IMG/VR virus record: IMGVR_UViG_3300049482_000028
Location: 1-43,182 of that record
DNA from: a virus
Strand: one strand, 5' to 3'
DNA: 43,182 nucleotides
In this document: positions 2,573-38,998 of the stretch, piece after piece
Position numbering within the stretch: the stretch's first letter is position 1
Layout of the letters: each line of letters opens with the position of its first letter
The notes under the pieces: model-generated
What the model was told of the DNA's origin: nothing
What the model saw: only the letters and a program-made list of their open reading frames with translations
Databases searched by the model: none
Translations under genes and position numbers: made by a program

Positions 2573-4311
2573 TGGCTCGTTGGAAACGCGCTAATACACA
2601 AAATCCTTTCTGGTATTCAGGTGGTATATACGCACCCGAACCTGTTGTTACTAGTGACTACCTAGACAGTGCTACGATCCTTGTAGACATTCAGGTGAGC
2701 GCAAGCGTTGACGTAGCTGACTACGTAGACAGCGCGACTGTGCTGATTGACATTCAGCTTAGTGCTACTGACGTAGCTGATTTCGTTGACACAGCGGCTC
2801 CTTATGTCGATATCCAACTTAGCAGCGCAGACAACCGCGAAGTACTTGAAAGCGGTATTGTCCCCGTATTGATAACGCCTAGTAGTGTTGACGTACTAGA
2901 CGCCATCGATACTGCAACCGTACTAGTAGACATACAACTGAGCGCGGTTGAGGAATTCTCATACAGTGACCTAGCAACGGCAACAGTTGTTATTACACCG
3001 TCTAGTAGCGACACCGCACAATACGTCGAAACAACCACAGTGCTAGTGGATATTCAAACGAGCGCCACAGAAGAGTACACGCGCTTTGATGCCGCTACTG
3101 TTCCTGTATTAATTAGCATCGTTACAACGGACACTGCGCAATTCGTTGACGCTGCTACGGGCACCGTTGTTGTAACAGTAACGAGTGCCGACACAGCACA
3201 ATACGTTGATAGCGCCACACCATACGTTGACATTCAACTTAGTAGTACGGAGGAACATACTACTTATGACGTTGCAACCGTATCAACACTTATCACTGTT
3301 ACCGCAGTTGAAAACGCACAGTTCGTCGATGCCGCTACAACAAATGTACTTATTTCAGTTACCAGTGTTGAGGAATACACAAGATTCGACGCGGCAACCG
3401 TTAGTGTTTTGGTCACGCCAAGCTCGGCAGACACAGCACAATATGTCGAAAGCGCAACTACTACTGTTCTAATCGGCGTAACCAGCGCAGAAGATCACAG
3501 TACCTACGATACCGCTACAGTACTAGTAGATCTACAACTCAGCAGTGTTGATGTAGCTGACTTCGTAGATTCTACTACCGTACTAGTGGATATTCAAACG
3601 AGCGCCACAGAAGATCGCACTTCTACCGATGCTAACACCGTACCCGTACTGGTAACACCTAGCAGTTCTGATACTGCACAGTACATTGAGGCCAGTGAGT
3701 GCTACGTCGATATACAGTGCAGCGGCACCGACGTTTATACACCGCCTGCTGGTAACTATGTCGATGCCGCTACTATCCCTGTGGTGATTTCGATCACAGG
3801 TGCCGACATCGCCGACTTTGTTGAAACAGCGACGATATATGAAGTACTAACACCTATCGGCAATGAGGAGTATACAAGGCTTGATAGTGCGACCTGCTAT
3901 GTAGATATCACTTGTACTTCCGTTGAAGTTGCAGCCTACGTAGATAGTGCCGTCGCATCCGTAACAGTTAGTATCAGCACAACGGACACAGCACAGTTTG
4001 TTGATGTAGCGGAATGCTACATCGACATTCAAGTCACCACAGTAGAAAACACGGCAGCAGTAGATGTTGGTACGATCGGCGTAGTAATTACGCCTAGTGC
4101 TACCGATACCGCAGACTACGTAGAGAATGCTACGATTTATGTTGACATTGATTGTAGTGGCGTCGAAATAATCATAATTGTTTATTACGACGCCGACACA
4201 GTTCCGATTACGTTTACCATCACGTCCGTTGAATTTCTGGTACCATCTATTCAGCCTGAGTTGGAATTCAGTAGCATGGTTTCCCGATGGATTGTGAAGT
4301 GGGATCTATGA
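2566..4311 (+). CDS. 581-aa protein of 26 tandem 20-residue repeats (fibre/decoration)
   Basis: It has a GTG start overlapping the upstream gene by 7 bases. After about 30 residues (KRANTQNPFWYSGG) the chain is 26 consecutive repeats of about 20 residues. Two types are mixed irregularly: one like YVDSATVLVDIQLSATDVAD and one like RFDAATVPVLITPSSSDTAQ. Each holds a hydrophobic strand flanked by Asp and Ser/Thr turns, the pattern of an extended beta fibre or solenoid. Repeats 18 and 25 carry short insertions. The end is SSMVSRWIVKWDL. DNA copies have diverged in codons, so the array is old or selected at protein level. It is probably a tail or head fibre; no named family is recognised. Confidence 0.75.
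   Translation: MVVARWKRANTQNPFWYSGGIYAPEPVVTSDYLDSATILVDIQVSASVDVADYVDSATVLIDIQLSATDVADFVDTAAPYVDIQLSSADNREVLESGIVPVLITPSSVDVLDAIDTATVLVDIQLSAVEEFSYSDLATATVVITPSSSDTAQYVETTTVLVDIQTSATEEYTRFDAATVPVLISIVTTDTAQFVDAATGTVVVTVTSADTAQYVDSATPYVDIQLSSTEEHTTYDVATVSTLITVTAVENAQFVDAATTNVLISVTSVEEYTRFDAATVSVLVTPSSADTAQYVESATTTVLIGVTSAEDHSTYDTATVLVDLQLSSVDVADFVDSTTVLVDIQTSATEDRTSTDANTVPVLVTPSSSDTAQYIEASECYVDIQCSGTDVYTPPAGNYVDAATIPVVISITGADIADFVETATIYEVLTPIGNEEYTRLDSATCYVDITCTSVEVAAYVDSAVASVTVSISTTDTAQFVDVAECYIDIQVTTVENTAAVDVGTIGVVITPSATDTADYVENATIYVDIDCSGVEIIIIVYYDADTVPITFTITSVEFLVPSIQPELEFSSMVSRWIVKWDL
2646..4232 (+). repeat. Tandem array with 60-bp (20-codon) period, about 26 units
   Basis: The period is visible in translation as repeated Tyr/Phe-Val-Asp...Ala-Thr...Val-Leu-Val/Ile-Asp-Ile blocks every 20 residues. 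Recurrent DNA words such as GACACAGCACAATA and GTAGACATTCA occur at 60-bp or 120-bp intervals. Units are imperfect at the nucleotide level. Confidence 0.8.
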
Positions 4312-10378: not shown

Positions 10379-10394
10379 ATAACAGGGAGAGAAA

Positions 10395-10844
10395 GTGTCA
10401 TTCGTAACTCTTGAAGATATCAATGTTCATCTAGGTGAAACTCTGCTTCAGGCTTTGGATGCTGATGACGATCCTTCAGTTCTAGATGCAGAACGTATCA
10501 TCAAGGGCAAATTGAGTGGCACTTTCTCTCCCACTGTTATCGCATCGTGGGTATCACCAGCAACTACGCCTGAGACAATTCGTGCTATTGCGGGTAGATT
10601 CGTAGCTGCACTTTATTACGCAAGAGCGTATAGTGAAGAGCAGACACAGACACCTGAATACGCGCAGAAGTTGTACGATGAAGCTATGTCAATGCTTCAG
10701 TGCATTGTTGATGGCGACATCATTCTACCAGAAGTAGCCGACGTAGATCAACCCACCACAGGGGGTAATCTAGAAAGTGCAGATTTCCTACCTAACGATA
10801 GTACATCACCGGGGTCACTATTCTCAGTGAGTGAAGTCTGGTAA
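10395..10844 (+). CDS. Head-tail connector / adaptor protein (149 aa)
   Basis: The GTG start follows CAGGGAGAGAAA. The chain is mainly helical: FVTLEDINVHLGETLLQALDADDDPSVLDAERIIKGKLSG, then PETIRAIAGRFVAALYYARAYSEE. This layout fits gp6/gp36-type adaptors (DUF1320-like) that form a ring below the portal. The C-terminal 40 residues are Ser/Asp-rich and probably flexible. Gene order (capsid, connector, completion proteins, tail tube) supports the call. It overlaps the next start by one base. Confidence 0.7.
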   Translation: MSFVTLEDINVHLGETLLQALDADDDPSVLDAERIIKGKLSGTFSPTVIASWVSPATTPETIRAIAGRFVAALYYARAYSEEQTQTPEYAQKLYDEAMSMLQCIVDGDIILPEVADVDQPTTGGNLESADFLPNDSTSPGSLFSVSEVW

Positions 10845-13148: not shown

Positions 13149-13586
13149 ATGCCCAAAGCAACAATCATTTCAGATGTAGTCCGTAAGGACTTGAAGAGTT
13201 GTCCTGGCGGATATGTAGAGTTGAAGCAGCTTGCTTATTCAGAGATGCTAGCTCGACGCGATATTGTTACACGACTCTCGATGAGTCAGAAGAAAGACAA
13301 CGACAAGATCGATGTCGAGCTAGCAAATCTGGAAGCTAACCGATTCAGCTTCAAGCATTGTATTGTAGACCACAATCTTGAAGATGATAATGGTGGTAAA
13401 CTGGATTTCTCTAATGCGATGACGTTGAATATCCTTGATCCTAGAATCGGACAAGAGATTGAACGGCATATCGATGAAATGAATCAAGAAGCAGATGACG
13501 AGAATCTAGAGGATTTTACGCCGCCTGTTTCTTTATCTTCCGTGGCGAAGTCAACAGAGCCTCAGATGCCTTCGGCATCAGCCTAA
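13149..13586 (+). CDS. Tail assembly chaperone, short form (145 aa)
   Basis: The ATG follows AAGGAGAGAGTA. The protein starts KATIISDVVRKDLKSCPGGYVELKQLAYSEM, a pattern common in G-type tail chaperones, and becomes acidic near the end. Such proteins keep the tape measure soluble and recruit tube subunits. The frame ends at 13584-13586. A -1 frame continues open beyond the stop to 13783, so a longer frameshifted product is expected (next entry). It lies directly between tube and tape measure genes. Confidence 0.8.
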   Translation: MPKATIISDVVRKDLKSCPGGYVELKQLAYSEMLARRDIVTRLSMSQKKDNDKIDVELANLEANRFSFKHCIVDHNLEDDNGGKLDFSNAMTLNILDPRIGQEIERHIDEMNQEADDENLEDFTPPVSLSSVAKSTEPQMPSASA

Positions 13587-13783
13587 CGAATGAAGTAATC
13601 AAATGGATGAAGATAACCCGCCTGTGCGAAACATTCGGAGTAATGCCAAGCACAGGCGGGTTATTCGATCAGCCGGCGATTTACATCAATAGGCTAGATA
13701 CCGTGATTCGCGCTAGAACCGCAGTTGAAGCAGTACAAACTGAGAAACAGGCAGCGAGAAATCGATTGAAAGGCAATAGCTAG
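13499..13783 (+). CDS. -1 frame extension of the tail assembly chaperone (GT-type, start by frameshift)
   Basis: The -1 frame is open from 13499 to the TAG at 13781-13783 and has no good start of its own. It reads FGISLTNEVIKWMKITRLCE, then LFDQPAIYINRLDTVIRART, helical and typical of the T half of GT chaperones. Frameshifting within 13499-13586 would give a protein of about 210 aa. No textbook slippery heptamer is seen. The best candidates are GGATTTT at 13511-13517 and TTCTTTA at 13529-13535. The stop overlaps the tape measure GTG, as usual for this gene pair. Confidence 0.7.
   Translation, partial: RESRGFYAACFFIFRGEVNRASDAFGISLTNEVIKWMKITRLCETFGVMPSTGGLFDQPAIYINRLDTVIRARTAVEAVQTEKQAARNRLKGNS
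13613..13664 (+). other. Perfect 15-bp inverted repeat (hairpin) inside the chaperone extension
   Basis: Bases 13613-13627 (ATAACCCGCCTGTGC) are exactly complementary to 13650-13664, with a 22-base loop. The hairpin begins 26 bases after the zero-frame stop and lies wholly in coding sequence of the -1 extension. It is followed by TCGATC rather than a T tract. It may affect frameshifting, mRNA processing or attenuation before the tape measure gene. Confidence 0.65.
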
Positions 13784-23326: not shown

Positions 23327-23373
23327 AAAGGCTGGTACTGTCCTTCCTCTCTCCTGGGACAGTACCAGCCTTT
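23327..23373. terminator. Bidirectional terminator between converging arms
   Basis: A perfect 17-bp stem (23327-23343 with 23357-23373; AAAGGCTGGTACTGTCC) has a 13-base loop. It is flanked by TTTTGT on the + side and by TTTGTTTCG on the - side. It lies between the last + strand gene and the last - strand gene and would stop both transcripts. Confidence 0.9.
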
Positions 23374-23936: not shown

Positions 23937-24119
23937 TCACGCGGTTCTCTGAGTCCTGCCGTGCTTCCTTCTCCGACGCACTGACATCTGAACCAATCGC
24001 TTAGATCGGTTACGCATTCTACGGGTATTACGCTCGTCAACGCTCAATTTATGCTTAGGCCCGATCTGCACTGAGTTCTTGATAGGACTGTATCCTAGTG
24101 CTGCTCCGTGGTACTTCAT
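23937..24119 (-). CDS. Small Arg-rich basic protein (60 aa)
   Basis: The ATG at 24119 overlaps the polymerase stop (TGATG) and has GGAGG seven bases upstream. The first half is MKYHGAALGYSPIKNSVQIG. The second half is densely basic (RNTRRMRNRSKRL, then RRRRKHGRTQR), suggesting nucleic-acid binding. A competing 60-codon frame at 23858-24040 has only a TTG start and is not preferred. The codon pattern is not convincing enough to be sure it is translated. Confidence 0.45.
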   Translation of the reverse strand: MKYHGAALGYSPIKNSVQIGPKHKLSVDERNTRRMRNRSKRLVQMSVRRRRKHGRTQRTA

Positions 24120-26488
24120 CACTTAGCCTCCGCCCATGTTTGTCCTACGCCAATATCGCATAGGAAAGGGAGTTCCCAACCTAGTTCTTCTTTAGCCCTT
24201 GATTCCATTACTTCACGGCAAAGCTGTGAGTAAACCTCGATGTAGTCGTCATCGACTTCTGCAATGATAGAGTCGTGTACCAGCAATAGTATGGCGCTCC
24301 GTGTAGGGTCGATTCGTCTGGATAGGAGCAAAGCAGAGGTAAGAGTGAGATCGCTAGCTGTAGTCTGAGGAAGGAAGTTAATCGCTTCTCGATATACCGC
24401 CTGGATATTCTCTTTGGTGAGTAGATGGAAACGTCGTCGCCGTCCAAAAGGCGATGAGATATAACCAACATCGTGGACTTGTTTCTCAATTCCTTTTTCC
24501 CACTTATATACACCCTGGAAATTCCGCCACCACCAATCGATAAATCTTTGCGCTTCATCAGATGGGATTCCATGCTTCTCCTGAAATGTATGTGCTGATT
24601 GTCTGAATGCAACACCGAAGTTCATGTTCTTCGCTTTACTCCGTTGCTCCGGTTGAAAGTCTACTCCATAGAAGCGTTCCGCAGCAATATTATGAAGATC
24701 AAGAGCCTCACTATAAATCGAGGTAAGATCGGGATCTCCCGATAAGCAGGCAATCACTCGTAGCTCTGCCTGCGAATAATCAGCCTGAACAATCTTCCTC
24801 CCCTGTGGTGCTTCAAACAATTTGCGAATGTCGGGCATTCCCGGCTTTGTGCGACTAATGTTCTGTAGGTTCGGTTCGGTACTAGAGAGCCTGCCTGTTA
24901 CTGTGCGACCTAGATTGAGATGCGTGTGGATACGTCCTTCTGGATCATCGATTGCCTCTTTAACCATACCCACGATGTACTGACTCGATTGCTTCTGTAG
25001 CTTCTTGTATCGATCAATACCTTGTGTTACGATGATGATGTACTCGCGCTTCTTGTCTACTGCTTTCGGTGTAGCTCCTGGCATTGCTTCTGCGAAGCAC
25101 GTAAACCGACCTTCTATTACTTCTTGTCGAGCAGCATCGTCAACAGATCGGGCTTTATCTGGTCGCGCTTGTAGCGCATGTTTAATTTTCCATTCGTCAT
25201 AGTAAAGCGCAGCACAATGGACCGTCGAGTTAGGGTTAAACAGAGGTTTATCGAGCGCATTACGTATCCGTTCTAGTAGACCAGACAGTTCCGGTTGTAG
25301 CTCGTTCTCGAACATATCAGCGGCAGCTTCGATGTTGTACTTAAAGCCAGTAAGCTCAACATCACGTAGAAACTCTTGTGCAGGGATGATCGGCCACAGA
25401 TAAGGCTTCTCCCATAGATCCTCTTTCTTCGATTGCCCACTATAGTAGTCAAATAGTTGCTTTGTCCCGCCTACGTCCCATCCTGCGTACTTGTAAAACT
25501 TGTCGTAATCTGTGACGATGCCTGTCTTTTTAATCTTATTGATCTCAGCATCTTCATACTTCGGCCAACTGAATTCCTCCATCAAACAGTACTCTAGTGC
25601 ATGTTGCCCTGAGCGCTCATCCAGTGTGTAAGATTGAAGAATCGTATCATGGTCGATACGCGCTTTTATTCCATAGGTATGTCGAAGGACTTTCGTATCA
25701 AAGACTCCGTTGTGCCAACAGAAATGCGTATCCCCTTCAAAGAAGGGTCGTAAGTGATCGTCAATGAAAATGCTGTCGGTGAATAATCCGCTTCGTTCTC
25801 CAAGTACATACGCAATTCTTCCGTTAACTGAAAACTGAATTGAGATGAGAGTCGCTCTATGAGTAAGTCCTCCGCGACTTTCGATATCTGCGGCGATAAT
25901 CGGATAGGTACTGAGATAATTGAGACATTCAATGGCGCTTTTGGCATCTTCTATCACCTTCACTTCTGGAAAGGTCGGTGGTGGTTGTGGGTGGAATGCG
26001 CGCTTAAAGTCTTTCTGTAGATTAGGGAAGATTGAATCGTCACGCATAACAGCAGCCGGGTGATTAGTCGCTACCAGCTTGTAATCGCCCATATTATGCG
26101 TATAACCACGTGCTCTTTCGATGCTCATCCCCGTTAAAACCCTAACTGCCTCTGAGCCACCAGCGATTACTAATTTCGCTGTAGCCGCCTCTGCTTTTAG
26201 TCTGCCACTACATGCCTTAAGCGCAGCGGGTGGTACCTTACCTTCCTCTGGCGCACACAGCACTGCATTAGTCAATCGAATGCTGTCACGATCAACGCCG
26301 TTCTGCTTCAGCAGATACCACAGGATGTCTGCGGCAGGTCCAGTAAACGAATTACCATTCTCAGCTTCGTAATAGCCCGGAGAACGCGCCACGAACAATA
26401 CATCGCTCCCCTGTGGGCCTCTTGTTTTCGCAAGAGGGCGATTTATCAGTGGACAATTCTCACAGTCTGCCCCAGGTACTTTACCCAT
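24119..26488 (-). CDS. DNA polymerase I family A fused to family-4 uracil-DNA-glycosylase-like domain (789 aa)
   Basis: Residues 1-167 resemble family-4 UDG. Cysteines 9, 12, 78 and 93 are placed as for a 4Fe-4S cluster. ARSPGYYEAENGNSFTGPAA (34-53) stands for the usual APG...G-x-PF-x-G motif, and NHPAA lies at 142-146. A 3'-5' exonuclease follows: DIE (201-203), HNGVFD (259-264), YAGWD (334-338). The polymerase shows motif A DYSQAELR (570-577), motif B R616-K620-F624-G625 and motif C VHDS (737-740). The SPO1 polymerase has a similar N-terminal domain. Phe628 replaces the usual O-helix Tyr. The start overlaps the 33-aa gene stop. Confidence 0.9.
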   Translation of the reverse strand: MGKVPGADCENCPLINRPLAKTRGPQGSDVLFVARSPGYYEAENGNSFTGPAADILWYLLKQNGVDRDSIRLTNAVLCAPEEGKVPPAALKACSGRLKAEAATAKLVIAGGSEAVRVLTGMSIERARGYTHNMGDYKLVATNHPAAVMRDDSIFPNLQKDFKRAFHPQPPPTFPEVKVIEDAKSAIECLNYLSTYPIIAADIESRGGLTHRATLISIQFSVNGRIAYVLGERSGLFTDSIFIDDHLRPFFEGDTHFCWHNGVFDTKVLRHTYGIKARIDHDTILQSYTLDERSGQHALEYCLMEEFSWPKYEDAEINKIKKTGIVTDYDKFYKYAGWDVGGTKQLFDYYSGQSKKEDLWEKPYLWPIIPAQEFLRDVELTGFKYNIEAAADMFENELQPELSGLLERIRNALDKPLFNPNSTVHCAALYYDEWKIKHALQARPDKARSVDDAARQEVIEGRFTCFAEAMPGATPKAVDKKREYIIIVTQGIDRYKKLQKQSSQYIVGMVKEAIDDPEGRIHTHLNLGRTVTGRLSSTEPNLQNISRTKPGMPDIRKLFEAPQGRKIVQADYSQAELRVIACLSGDPDLTSIYSEALDLHNIAAERFYGVDFQPEQRSKAKNMNFGVAFRQSAHTFQEKHGIPSDEAQRFIDWWWRNFQGVYKWEKGIEKQVHDVGYISSPFGRRRRFHLLTKENIQAVYREAINFLPQTTASDLTLTSALLLSRRIDPTRSAILLLVHDSIIAEVDDDYIEVYSQLCREVMESRAKEELGWELPFLCDIGVGQTWAEAK

Positions 26489-37393: not shown

Positions 37394-37747
37394 CTAGTAG
37401 CCGTTACGTACCCATGATCTGTTCATGTAACAACCCCATCCAGTAAACCCATAACGCTTGTAGATAGCAAGCGCCACTTTATACTGTTGCCACGGTGTTG
37501 CGTTGTATGCTTCTCGCGGGTATCCGAATTTATTGAACGCATCCCACGATCCATGATAAAAACCGAATGCTCCTTGATATGTTCCACTGTTATGCTTCCA
37601 GTTTGTTCCAGTTTCGCACTGTGCTATTCTTTGCCATACTGGAGGCAACCACTTTTTATGTTGCCATTGCCAATTATTGCCTGTGTTCCCCGCAGGTGTT
37701 ACAACCAACGTAGCCAACACAGTAATGATGACAAGTGCTTTCTTCAA
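37394..37747 (-). CDS. Secreted Rpf-like transglycosylase (117 aa)
   Basis: The TTG at 37747 is chosen: AGAAGGG lies a few bases upstream and the product then begins with a clean signal peptide (MKKALVIITVLATLVVTPAG). The mature domain has the Rpf/lysozyme-like pattern WQRIAQCETGTNWKHNSG with catalytic-type Glu45. It also has QGAFGFYHGSWDAF, and Cys44 and Cys106 placed as the conserved disulfide (FTGWGC). Rpf proteins cleave peptidoglycan glycan strands and are characteristic of Actinobacteria. It is far from the lysis cassette, and its leader is highly structured. Confidence 0.8.
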   Translation of the reverse strand: MKKALVIITVLATLVVTPAGNTGNNWQWQHKKWLPPVWQRIAQCETGTNWKHNSGTYQGAFGFYHGSWDAFNKFGYPREAYNATPWQQYKVALAIYKRYGFTGWGCYMNRSWVRNGY

Positions 37748-37774
37748 AGCATCCCTTCTGTGGACGACAAGGTG

Positions 37775-37809
37775 GGGGTAGGGTGTATCGCATAAATACA
37801 CCCTACCCC
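37775..37809 (-). terminator. 14-bp hairpin B in the Rpf leader (terminator or expression platform)
   Basis: A perfect stem, 37775-37788 with 37796-37809 (GGGGTAGGGTGTAT), has a 7-base loop. There is no T tract after it on the - strand. Its 5' arm on the - strand starts inside GAGGGG, which is complementary to the loop of hairpin A. It ends 15 bases before the ribosome binding site. Confidence 0.6.
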
Positions 37810-37815
37810 TCTTCA

Positions 37816-37843
37816 ACTGCTATCGAGGGGATGTGATAGCAGT
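37816..37843 (-). other. 9-bp hairpin A in the Rpf leader
   Basis: Bases 37816-37824 (ACTGCTATC) pair with 37835-37843. The 10-base loop contains, on the - strand, CCCCTC, which can pair with GAGGGG at 37806-37811 in hairpin B. It is located between the aptamer-like RNA and hairpin B. Confidence 0.6.
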
Positions 37844-37850
37844 GAATTTA

Positions 37851-37959
37851 TGTCCAGTAAGCTACTCCGTGCATTGTTAGCAGGGAAGGCAGGAAAACCC
37901 TGTTAACCGCTTTGCCGTGTCGGGAACCTCCATGTGGGAGATGAGCCGCTTACTGGACA
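37851..37959 (-). ncRNA. Aptamer-like structured leader RNA upstream of the Rpf-like gene (candidate riboswitch)
   Basis: It is closed by a perfect 12-bp helix, 37851-37862 with 37948-37959 (TGTCCAGTAAGC/GCTTACTGGACA). Inside, 37876-37885 pairs with 37898-37907 (10 bp, one mismatch), and CTCC/GGAG forms a small hairpin at 37928-37940. On the - strand GGAGGTTCC, CGGTTAAC, GCTAAC and CGGAG occur in the same order as in my recollection of ydaO (c-di-AMP) riboswitches, a class known upstream of actinobacterial rpf genes. The structure is clear; the ligand class is a hypothesis. Confidence 0.6.
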
Positions 37960-37964
37960 CTAAA

Positions 37965-37993
37965 CTTATATCACAAATCCTAACTAAAGTCAA
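37965..37993 (-). promoter_or_regulatory. Strong predicted promoter for the leader RNA and Rpf-like gene
   Basis: On the - strand TTGACT (37988-37993) and TATAAG (37965-37970) are 17 bases apart, with an extended TGA before the -10. It overlaps the stop codon of the LuxR-type gene. A start near 37958 would place the 12-bp closing helix at the very 5' end of the transcript. Confidence 0.75.
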
Positions 37994-38343
37994 GTGATTA
38001 ATCCGCGTCGTATACCAATTGCTACCGCATGAGTTGAATTCCTCGCTTGCAATTTCGATCTTGCGTGTTTTAGATGCGTTTTAACTGTTTCCCGAGAAAC
38101 ATACAGTTCAGCCGCTACTGAATCAACGCGGCCAGAATTCGCATAAGATTGCAACATCATTAGTTCTCTATAGCTTAAGCTTGCGATATCAACTATTGCC
38201 ATATTAGCCATTAATCTCTCCAATGCTCCGATCGCTCTATCTTCTTTATACTTTATACCCCTTAGCCATTCACGGGGCGAATTGGAATAGTCACGATCAG
38301 TGAGTAATCCTGCCTTATTATGTACTTGACCTCTGCGACTCAA
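37990..38343 (-). CDS. LuxR/GerE-type HTH regulator (117 aa, or 73 aa from internal ATG)
   Basis: Residues 56-112 are a LuxR-type helix-turn-helix: LSYRELMMLQSYANSGRVDSV, then AELYVSRETVKTHLKHARSK, with the usual VKTH recognition helix. The long form begins at TTG 38343 with no ribosome binding site. An in-frame ATG at 38211 has GGAGAG upstream and would give a bare 73-aa HTH protein. It ends on the promoter of the Rpf leader and may regulate that promoter or the inverted-repeat region upstream. Confidence 0.75.
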   Translation of the reverse strand: MSRRGQVHNKAGLLTDRDYSNSPREWLRGIKYKEDRAIGALERLMANMAIVDIASLSYRELMMLQSYANSGRVDSVAAELYVSRETVKTHLKHARSKLQARNSTHAVAIGIRRGLIT

Positions 38344-38349
38344 AGATAA

Positions 38350-38406
38350 GAGCTACGGATAGCTCTAGAAGGAGAATGTCGGTTCACCCTTTACTATCCG
38401 TAGCTC
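38350..38406. repeat. 13-bp perfect inverted repeat, 31-base loop
   Basis: GAGCTACGGATAG (38350-38362) pairs with 38394-38406. On the - strand it is followed by TTATCTTTG, so it could terminate leftward transcription or fold in the 5' leader of the LuxR-type gene. Its inner edge abuts the next inverted repeat. Confidence 0.7.
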
Positions 38407-38512
38407 ACGGAGCTAGTAAGTCACTGTTACCAGTGTGAATATCGCAGCGCGGATACACCACACTACGATACCCCATACAGTGCGCTTACCGTATGTAACC
38501 TACTAGCTCCGT
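38407..38512. ncRNA. Candidate four-way-junction RNA or DNA structure
   Basis: Arms 38407-38418 and 38501-38512 (ACGGAGCTAGTA/TACTAGCTCCGT) pair perfectly over 12 bp. Within the 82-base interior three smaller hairpins can form: CACTG/CAGTG; TATCGTAG with CTGCGATA (one wobble); CATAC/GTATG. The overall size resembles the Rpf leader RNA. The strand is unknown. Confidence 0.45.
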
Positions 38513-38534
38513 CAACTACGTTTCGTGAAGTTAT

Positions 38535-38614
38535 CTTCACTGTTAAGGCCACTCACCCTTTGCTCTATTGTTTATGGAGCAGCACAGTGGAAAGGGGTGG
38601 CCTTAACAGTGAAG
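38535..38614. repeat. 18-bp perfect inverted repeat with inner helix
   Basis: CTTCACTGTTAAGGCCAC (38535-38552) pairs with 38597-38614. After a 3-base bulge, CCCTTT (38556-38561) pairs with AAAGGG (38591-38596). The top carries a small GCTC/GAGC hairpin. The right arm is shared with the hairpin at 38604-38639. Confidence 0.75.
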
Positions 38615-38639
38615 CCCCAATTAAGGGGCTTCACTGTTA
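38604..38639. terminator. 15-bp perfect hairpin, 6-base loop, after the 116-aa gene
   Basis: TAACAGTGAAGCCCC (38604-38618) pairs with 38625-38639; loop AATTAA. It begins 8 bases past the stop of the - strand gene at 38648, so it may end that transcript. No T tract follows. Its left arm also forms the 18-bp stem, making the two folds exclusive. Confidence 0.6.
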
Positions 38640-38647
38640 CTTACTGT

Positions 38648-38998
38648 TTACGCCTCAACTGCCTTGTTGATGAGGTAAACGTGATCCTCATTCAGAATCA
38701 CCTGGATCGTCGGCTTAAGCTCATCCGACAGCTTCTTCCTGGCGTTCTCAAAGCCAGTCTTAACACTCTGTGGCTTCTTACCTGCAAGAGCGCCATCAGT
38801 AAGATCAACCTCTTCACCACGATTCTCACGAGCGATGAATGCATTAAGCTCATCAGTGTAAAGACCGCGCTGCTTGCTACCTGCCTGAAGCTCAGTGATA
38901 CGTGCGGGATCAAGAACAAGTGCCATTTTGGTATTCTCCTTAGTTGTATGAGTTGTTGTTGGTGCTGCTGATGCTGTTGCCTTACGTGGCTTTGCCAT
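38648..38998 (-). CDS. Hypothetical protein with two possible starts (116 or 92 aa)
   Basis: The ATG at 38998 follows GGTAGGTAAGTAG. A second in-frame ATG at 38926 follows AAGGAGAATACCAAA and may be the main start. The extra N-terminus is Thr/Ala/Lys-rich and low-complexity (KPRKATASAAPTTTHTTK). The core (ALVLDPARITELQAGSKQRG, then DGALAGKKPQSVKTGFENAR) is helical, and its end (IQVILNEDHVYLINKAVEA) resembles a small DNA-binding or modulator domain. No family is named. The 15-bp hairpin follows its stop. Confidence 0.65.
   Translation of the reverse strand: MAKPRKATASAAPTTTHTTKENTKMALVLDPARITELQAGSKQRGLYTDELNAFIARENRGEEVDLTDGALAGKKPQSVKTGFENARKKLSDELKPTIQVILNEDHVYLINKAVEA

Follow-up and report, generated by a model that had tools for sequence, protein, structure and literature searches.

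A folded 5' leader precedes a secreted Rpf-like wall enzyme in a phage genome, and its design recurs at like genes in related phages

In Actinobacteria, riboswitches of the ydaO/c-di-AMP class (RF00379) precede rpf and nlpC genes, and riboswitches of the ydaO type lie upstream of wall-enzyme genes in both C. glutamicum and S. coelicolor (PMC9960051), which makes the analogy with this class sensible for a structured leader preceding a phage gene of the same kind. A different mode of action is described for the put RNA of phage HK022, which suppresses pausing and termination by binding polymerase (PMC9378689). The locus analyzed here lies in a window of 43,182 bases that comprises a full virus record (IMGVR_UViG_3300049482_000028). 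A sequence-only reading of positions 37,748 to 37,993 had proposed a phage riboswitch that may tune a secreted Rpf-like enzyme to a host second messenger. The analysis presented below shows that this observation is real and can be partly confirmed, and that the interpretation as a whole is partly supported.

The right-arm genes of the window are encoded on the minus strand, where a small gene (38998-38648) comes first in the direction of transcription, followed by 304 nt of non-coding sequence, the gene of a LuxR-type (GerE) regulator (37990..38343; PF00196, E 1.2e-10), the leader, and the gene for the Rpf-type enzyme. Look-alikes of the small gene, identified by eye from translations, occupy the same place in phages G015, G047 and G048. 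The final gene of the series (37394..37747) encodes a secreted Rpf-like transglycosylase of 117 aa with a TTG start, which belongs to PF06737 (E 1.9e-12; 48.1 bits versus a curated cut-off of 27) and carries a signal peptide as judged by eye from the translation. The Rpf sequence was also tried as a means of host assignment and discarded for this purpose, as its matches, in Kitasatospora and Streptomyces, were all distant (about 35% identity). Elsewhere in the window (24119-26488, minus strand), a gene encodes a DNA polymerase A with a uracil-DNA glycosylase domain fused at its N terminus, and the closest such fusions have polymerases about 55% identical to that of the window. The LuxR-type regulator lies directly upstream of the leader, its stop codon falls within the -35 hexamer TTGACT of the leader promoter, and it is a possible activator of that promoter.

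The predicted promoter (37965..37993, minus strand), detected by a consensus scan, is TTGACT-17-TATAAG, with the -35 element at 37993-37988, a 17-bp spacer, the -10 element at 37970-37965 and a TG one base 5' of it, in agreement with the extended -10 promoter previously described. Matches of this type are by themselves not significant genome-wide (five in the window, 4-13 in shuffles), and the telling feature of the promoter is its position rather than its consensus match. As the sequence-only reading had held, the predicted transcription start (around 37961-37958) coincides with the 5' boundary of a 12-bp helix without mismatches (37948-37959/37851-37862). The predicted transcribed leader is about 212 nt long, instead of the 242 nt originally given. 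The helix closes a domain of about 110 nt, here termed element 1 (37850..37960, minus strand), which contains two inner hairpins (37942-37926 and 37907-37876); the second of these is the internal hairpin reported earlier, with nine pairs instead of ten. Two downstream hairpins follow on the same strand, as had been noticed: H1 (37812..37846), with the loop ACAUCCCCUC at 37834-37825, and H2 (37775..37809), an inverted repeat of 15 pairs that is the last structure 5' of the Shine-Dalgarno (SD) sequence and a candidate attenuator. The H1 loop can pair with either the 5' arm of H2 or the SD, with duplex energies of -12.4 and -11.8 kcal/mol. H2 is followed by a weak tail, CACCUUGU (CACCUUGUC), which constitutes a poor U-tract, and no good terminator was found after it on the minus strand. 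The SD, GAAGGG (37753..37758), and the TTG start (37747-37745) are where the binding site and start of the enzyme had been placed, and the start is overlapped by AUG-CUU-UGA at 37752-37744.

The 261-nt leader folds with a z-score of -6.6, none of 200 shuffled sequences being equally stable, and its parts are stable on their own (z -4.7 for the 111-nt domain of element 1, -6.4 for H1 and H2 together). Perfect inverted repeats with arms of 12 bp or more and loops up to 150 occur 11 times in the window, versus 0.17 expected from shuffles, and six of them are located within 37775-38639. Other long inverted repeats are found at 10385-10532, 13240-13331, 13613-13664 and 23327-23373, most of them near or between left-arm genes and one at the junction of the two gene blocks. 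No tRNA was found in the window. The genome is not otherwise gapless, as the initial description had it; long non-coding stretches exist, most prominently at 38344-38647.

Like the leaders bearing ydaO riboswitches, the leader of the window is a structured element 5' of a cell-wall enzyme gene, Rpf included, but it does not match the family model. The search with RF00379 (gathering score 38 bits), proposed earlier as a check, found nothing with E values as high as 10, either in a 601-base segment containing the leader or, run alone, in the whole records of the window phage and 11 other phages, while two of 14 control genomes gave hits above the cut-off under identical conditions. More generally, none of 4,227 Rfam families matched in the window at gathering scores, and no Rfam family whatever was detected at E 10 on the minus strand of the 601-base segment; the best sub-threshold match, Magnesium-II, lies on the opposite strand (20.5 bits versus 40). 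The blocks that had been read as ydaO-like do not support the assignment either: GGTTAAC and GCTAAC pair with each other as one hairpin here. Judged from the sequence, therefore, the RNA of this leader is not a member of the ydaO/c-di-AMP class, and the claim of c-di-AMP control is not upheld.

Homologues of element 1 were absent from a DNA search of 44 records and from GenBank phages, and none was returned by a covariance model over 24 sources or, in the de novo search among related phages that had been suggested earlier, over 27 records. Absence from related records proves little, because most of these may be fragments. A pattern scan of viral contigs gave a single hit that reads as coding sequence, and homology to RNA-B (see below) via ACGGCAAA was rejected, given that the two have only this 8-mer in common and differ in architecture. 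Element 1 is consequently an orphan with one known member, and no base-pair covariation can be counted for it.

The structured 5' leader before an Rpf-type wall enzyme, which was the core of the earlier proposal, is confirmed, and such leaders recur at like genes in related phages. A signal-peptide transglycosylase-like gene was found in ten phages, including the window phage (G000), and in seven of them the 200 nt 5' of the gene fold with z-scores between -4.1 and -7.8 (window -6.8, G003 -7.5, G015 -7.8, G029 -6.6, G047 -5.7, G041 -4.7, G035 -4.1), as compared to a mean of -0.62 (sd 1.5) for control regions, the three lowest of which lie inside RNA arrays or border on them. Only weak structure is seen in the leaders of G018, G023 and G038 (z -0.9 to -1.7), and G004, which is more distantly related and likewise carries an Rpf gene, has an unstructured one (z -0.1). 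TTGAC[A/T]-17-TANNNT promoters lie upstream of the structures in G000, G015, G029 and G041, and a U-rich tail follows the last hairpin in G047 (UUUUCUUGU), G003 (GUUUUGU) and G029 (GUCUUUGU), ahead of a run-up to the SD that is similar among them. The window and G029 further share the same order of elements, with an H1 bearing a CCCC loop, an H2 with a GGGG 5' arm, and a similar run-up to the SD. Start codons, as called from SD position, frame and signal peptide, are TTG in five phages, CTG in two, ATT in two and ATC in one, and never ATG or GTG; AUG-NUU-UGA overlaps the TTG in G003, G038 and the window. Apparent ATT, ATC or CTG starts stand behind good SDs in records L129, L125, L133, L131 and L102, and L125 (G035) has an ATG in a different frame at good SD distance.

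Relatives thus have leaders of this design before like genes, even though the RNA sequences differ. No sequence-conserved aptamer was found across the ten leaders, which are dissimilar in sequence except for RNA-F, a hairpin of about 55 nt in the leaders of the transglycosylase-like genes of G015 and G029 (L101 918-975, minus strand; L107 1685-1736, plus strand). In these two sequences, on which the definition of RNA-F is based, UUGAAGG[G/A]AGUUAGUACGGCU...GUAAAU retains its loop, whereas the outer helix differs; RNA-F has no Rfam match. The SD finds its complement in one strand of a leader helix in both G029 and G015. Sequestration of the SD was nonetheless discarded as a common mechanism, since 57 of 300 shuffles of the window leader do equally well, which is chance level, and only G029 (13 of 300) falls below 5% across the group.

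The non-coding stretch 350 bases upstream (38344-38647, 304 nt) belongs to a region, 38345-38660, that folds even better than the leader (z -10.9). It contains a structured RNA separate from the leader, element E (38399..38520, minus strand; z -9.2 for 38345-38530), whose 3' flank forms a predicted 13-bp helix with a downstream third segment (38349..38407, minus strand); in most arrays such a segment is able to pair with the 3' flank. Nine copies of E were identified in six phages, with none in a reversed-sequence control, and those outside the window are located at 2933-2831 and 2523-2448 in L013, 1355-1210 in L101, 1163-1243 in L103, 10715-10610 and 10611-10453 in L111, and 4137-4250 and 4498-4592 in L114. 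Their flanks, CGUAGUUGA/UGAGCUACG, enclose inner stems of 9-17 bp and present one constant G.G mismatch, and one copy has the flanks CAUAAUUGA/UGAAUUAUG, which amount to a compensatory change. The flank pattern occurs in four records only of the viral collection, from which records very near the window may be excluded. No Rfam match was obtained for E elements where searched, and by these sequence criteria they constitute an undescribed family of structured phage RNAs with compensatory changes, absent from Rfam. Distinct from the leader, this family may be the more substantial find of the two.

Some GOLLD and ROOL RNAs are phage-encoded near tRNA genes, and one of the arrays described here likewise has a tmRNA and tRNA-like RNAs. 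As large structured RNAs, GOLLD and ROOL (PMC12286853) are comparable to the neighboring array, not to the leader, and they differ from it in that the array elements measure 76-159 nt and match no Rfam family. The array that includes the phage-encoded tmRNA (85.3 bits; L101 1560-1895, minus strand) is one of the E arrays. The tRNA-like RNAs, near 1996 in L101 (minus strand) and near 1285 in L102 (plus strand), have a T-arm, were missed by ARAGORN and end in an E-type flank, TTGAGCTACG. A further RNA, RNA-B (about 4351-4490 in L114, plus strand; about 2660-2530 in L013, minus strand), conserves AGUGUGUG...ACGGCAAACUCGUAGCUA...CGUAGGCCGCGCACACU, and the stem of its first hairpin is entirely different between the two phages, with an identical loop, AGUGGCAAA; it was not found beyond these two records. 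In L103 (170-985, plus strand), a unit of about 80 nt, GATGCGNAG...GGGTTACTTC...GTTCTC, is present in several tandem copies, some of them with a tRNA-like T-arm. The leader and the array could conceivably be parts of a single phage RNA system, undescribed and fast-evolving, beside the wall enzyme, comprising the E elements with their constant G.G clamp mismatch, RNA-B, RNA-F, the tRNA-like RNAs and the tmRNA, in which element 1 would sense or antiterminate and thereby time the enzyme, a proposal that we consider doubtful.

The reading that we prefer, and to which we assign an even chance, is that the 5' leader acts in cis to restrain and time a secreted peptidoglycan-cutting enzyme. Transcription would start at 37961-37958, possibly aided by the LuxR-like regulator encoded just upstream, and the leader RNA would fold while emerging. 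H2 would then serve as an attenuator that lets only a fraction of the polymerases through, and translation of the enzyme would be held low by its weak start codon; element 1 could set the frequency of polymerase passage, or merely guard the 5' end. Attenuation at the last hairpin is the mechanism that we tentatively favor. The leader resembles attenuator leaders in its succession of promoter, folded domain, last hairpin (with a U-rich tail in several relatives) and SD, and departs from them in that its own U-tract is poor and it has no known effector. Restraint and timing, which require no ligand, most likely fit better than metabolite sensing, because design and position are kept and sequence is not, the enzyme cuts the cell wall, and the start codons are weak.

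The retention of structure without sequence, however, also fits a passive 5' stabilizer or insulator, since any stable hairpin would do. Hairpins would in this case have no regulatory role, serving to protect the mRNA against nucleases and to leave the SD free, and the closing helix that begins at the predicted transcription start would be well placed for it. Three hairpins across about 210 nt exceed this need, and the RNA-F loop sequence is kept in two phages, so that passive stabilization appears unlikely. A closed, aptamer-like domain at the 5' end of the transcript, followed by a possible expression platform whose H1 loop can pair with the H2 arm or the SD, would instead suit a riboswitch of a new class, in which element 1 would control H1 and H2 upon binding a small molecule. 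A ligand-binding RNA would be expected to show a conserved aptamer across the ten leaders, and given its absence, together with the lack of an Rfam match and of any element 1 homologue under the covariance model in 27 records, a new riboswitch is very improbable.

In HK022 put (PMC9378689), hairpins are stacked where a phage transcript begins, and the similar placement here could also denote an RNA that acts on the transcribing polymerase so that later terminators are passed, of which H2 would be the first. The likeness is one of placement only: no match to put in sequence or structure is known, and the leader precedes one secreted enzyme, with only a short run of genes downstream, which makes a put-like function highly unlikely. 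A free-standing small RNA ending at H1 or H2, acting elsewhere and leaving the gene to be reached by readthrough, could draw on its own promoter match, a stable fold of about 200 nt and the array of structured RNAs 350 bases away. The minus strand offers no good terminator after H2, though, and the leaders of relatives directly adjoin the SD, rendering this possibility very unlikely as well. Finally, the clustered perfect inverted repeats fold on both strands and might mark a DNA-level feature, such as a cruciform or a replication or protein-binding site. The plus strand folds more poorly (z -3.3 for 150 nt, versus -6.6 for the minus-strand leader), for which a plus-strand reading was set aside, and the promoter and SD indicate RNA; a DNA feature is hence extremely improbable.

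Restraint and timing of the wall enzyme by its leader would set these phages beside Actinobacteria, where wall-enzyme genes, including rpf, are under ydaO riboswitches (PMC9960051). The phages seem to gain similarly tight control with unrelated, fast-changing RNA leaders and weak start codons. If this is true, these leaders would provide a natural set for studying the RNA-based dosing of a hazardous enzyme.
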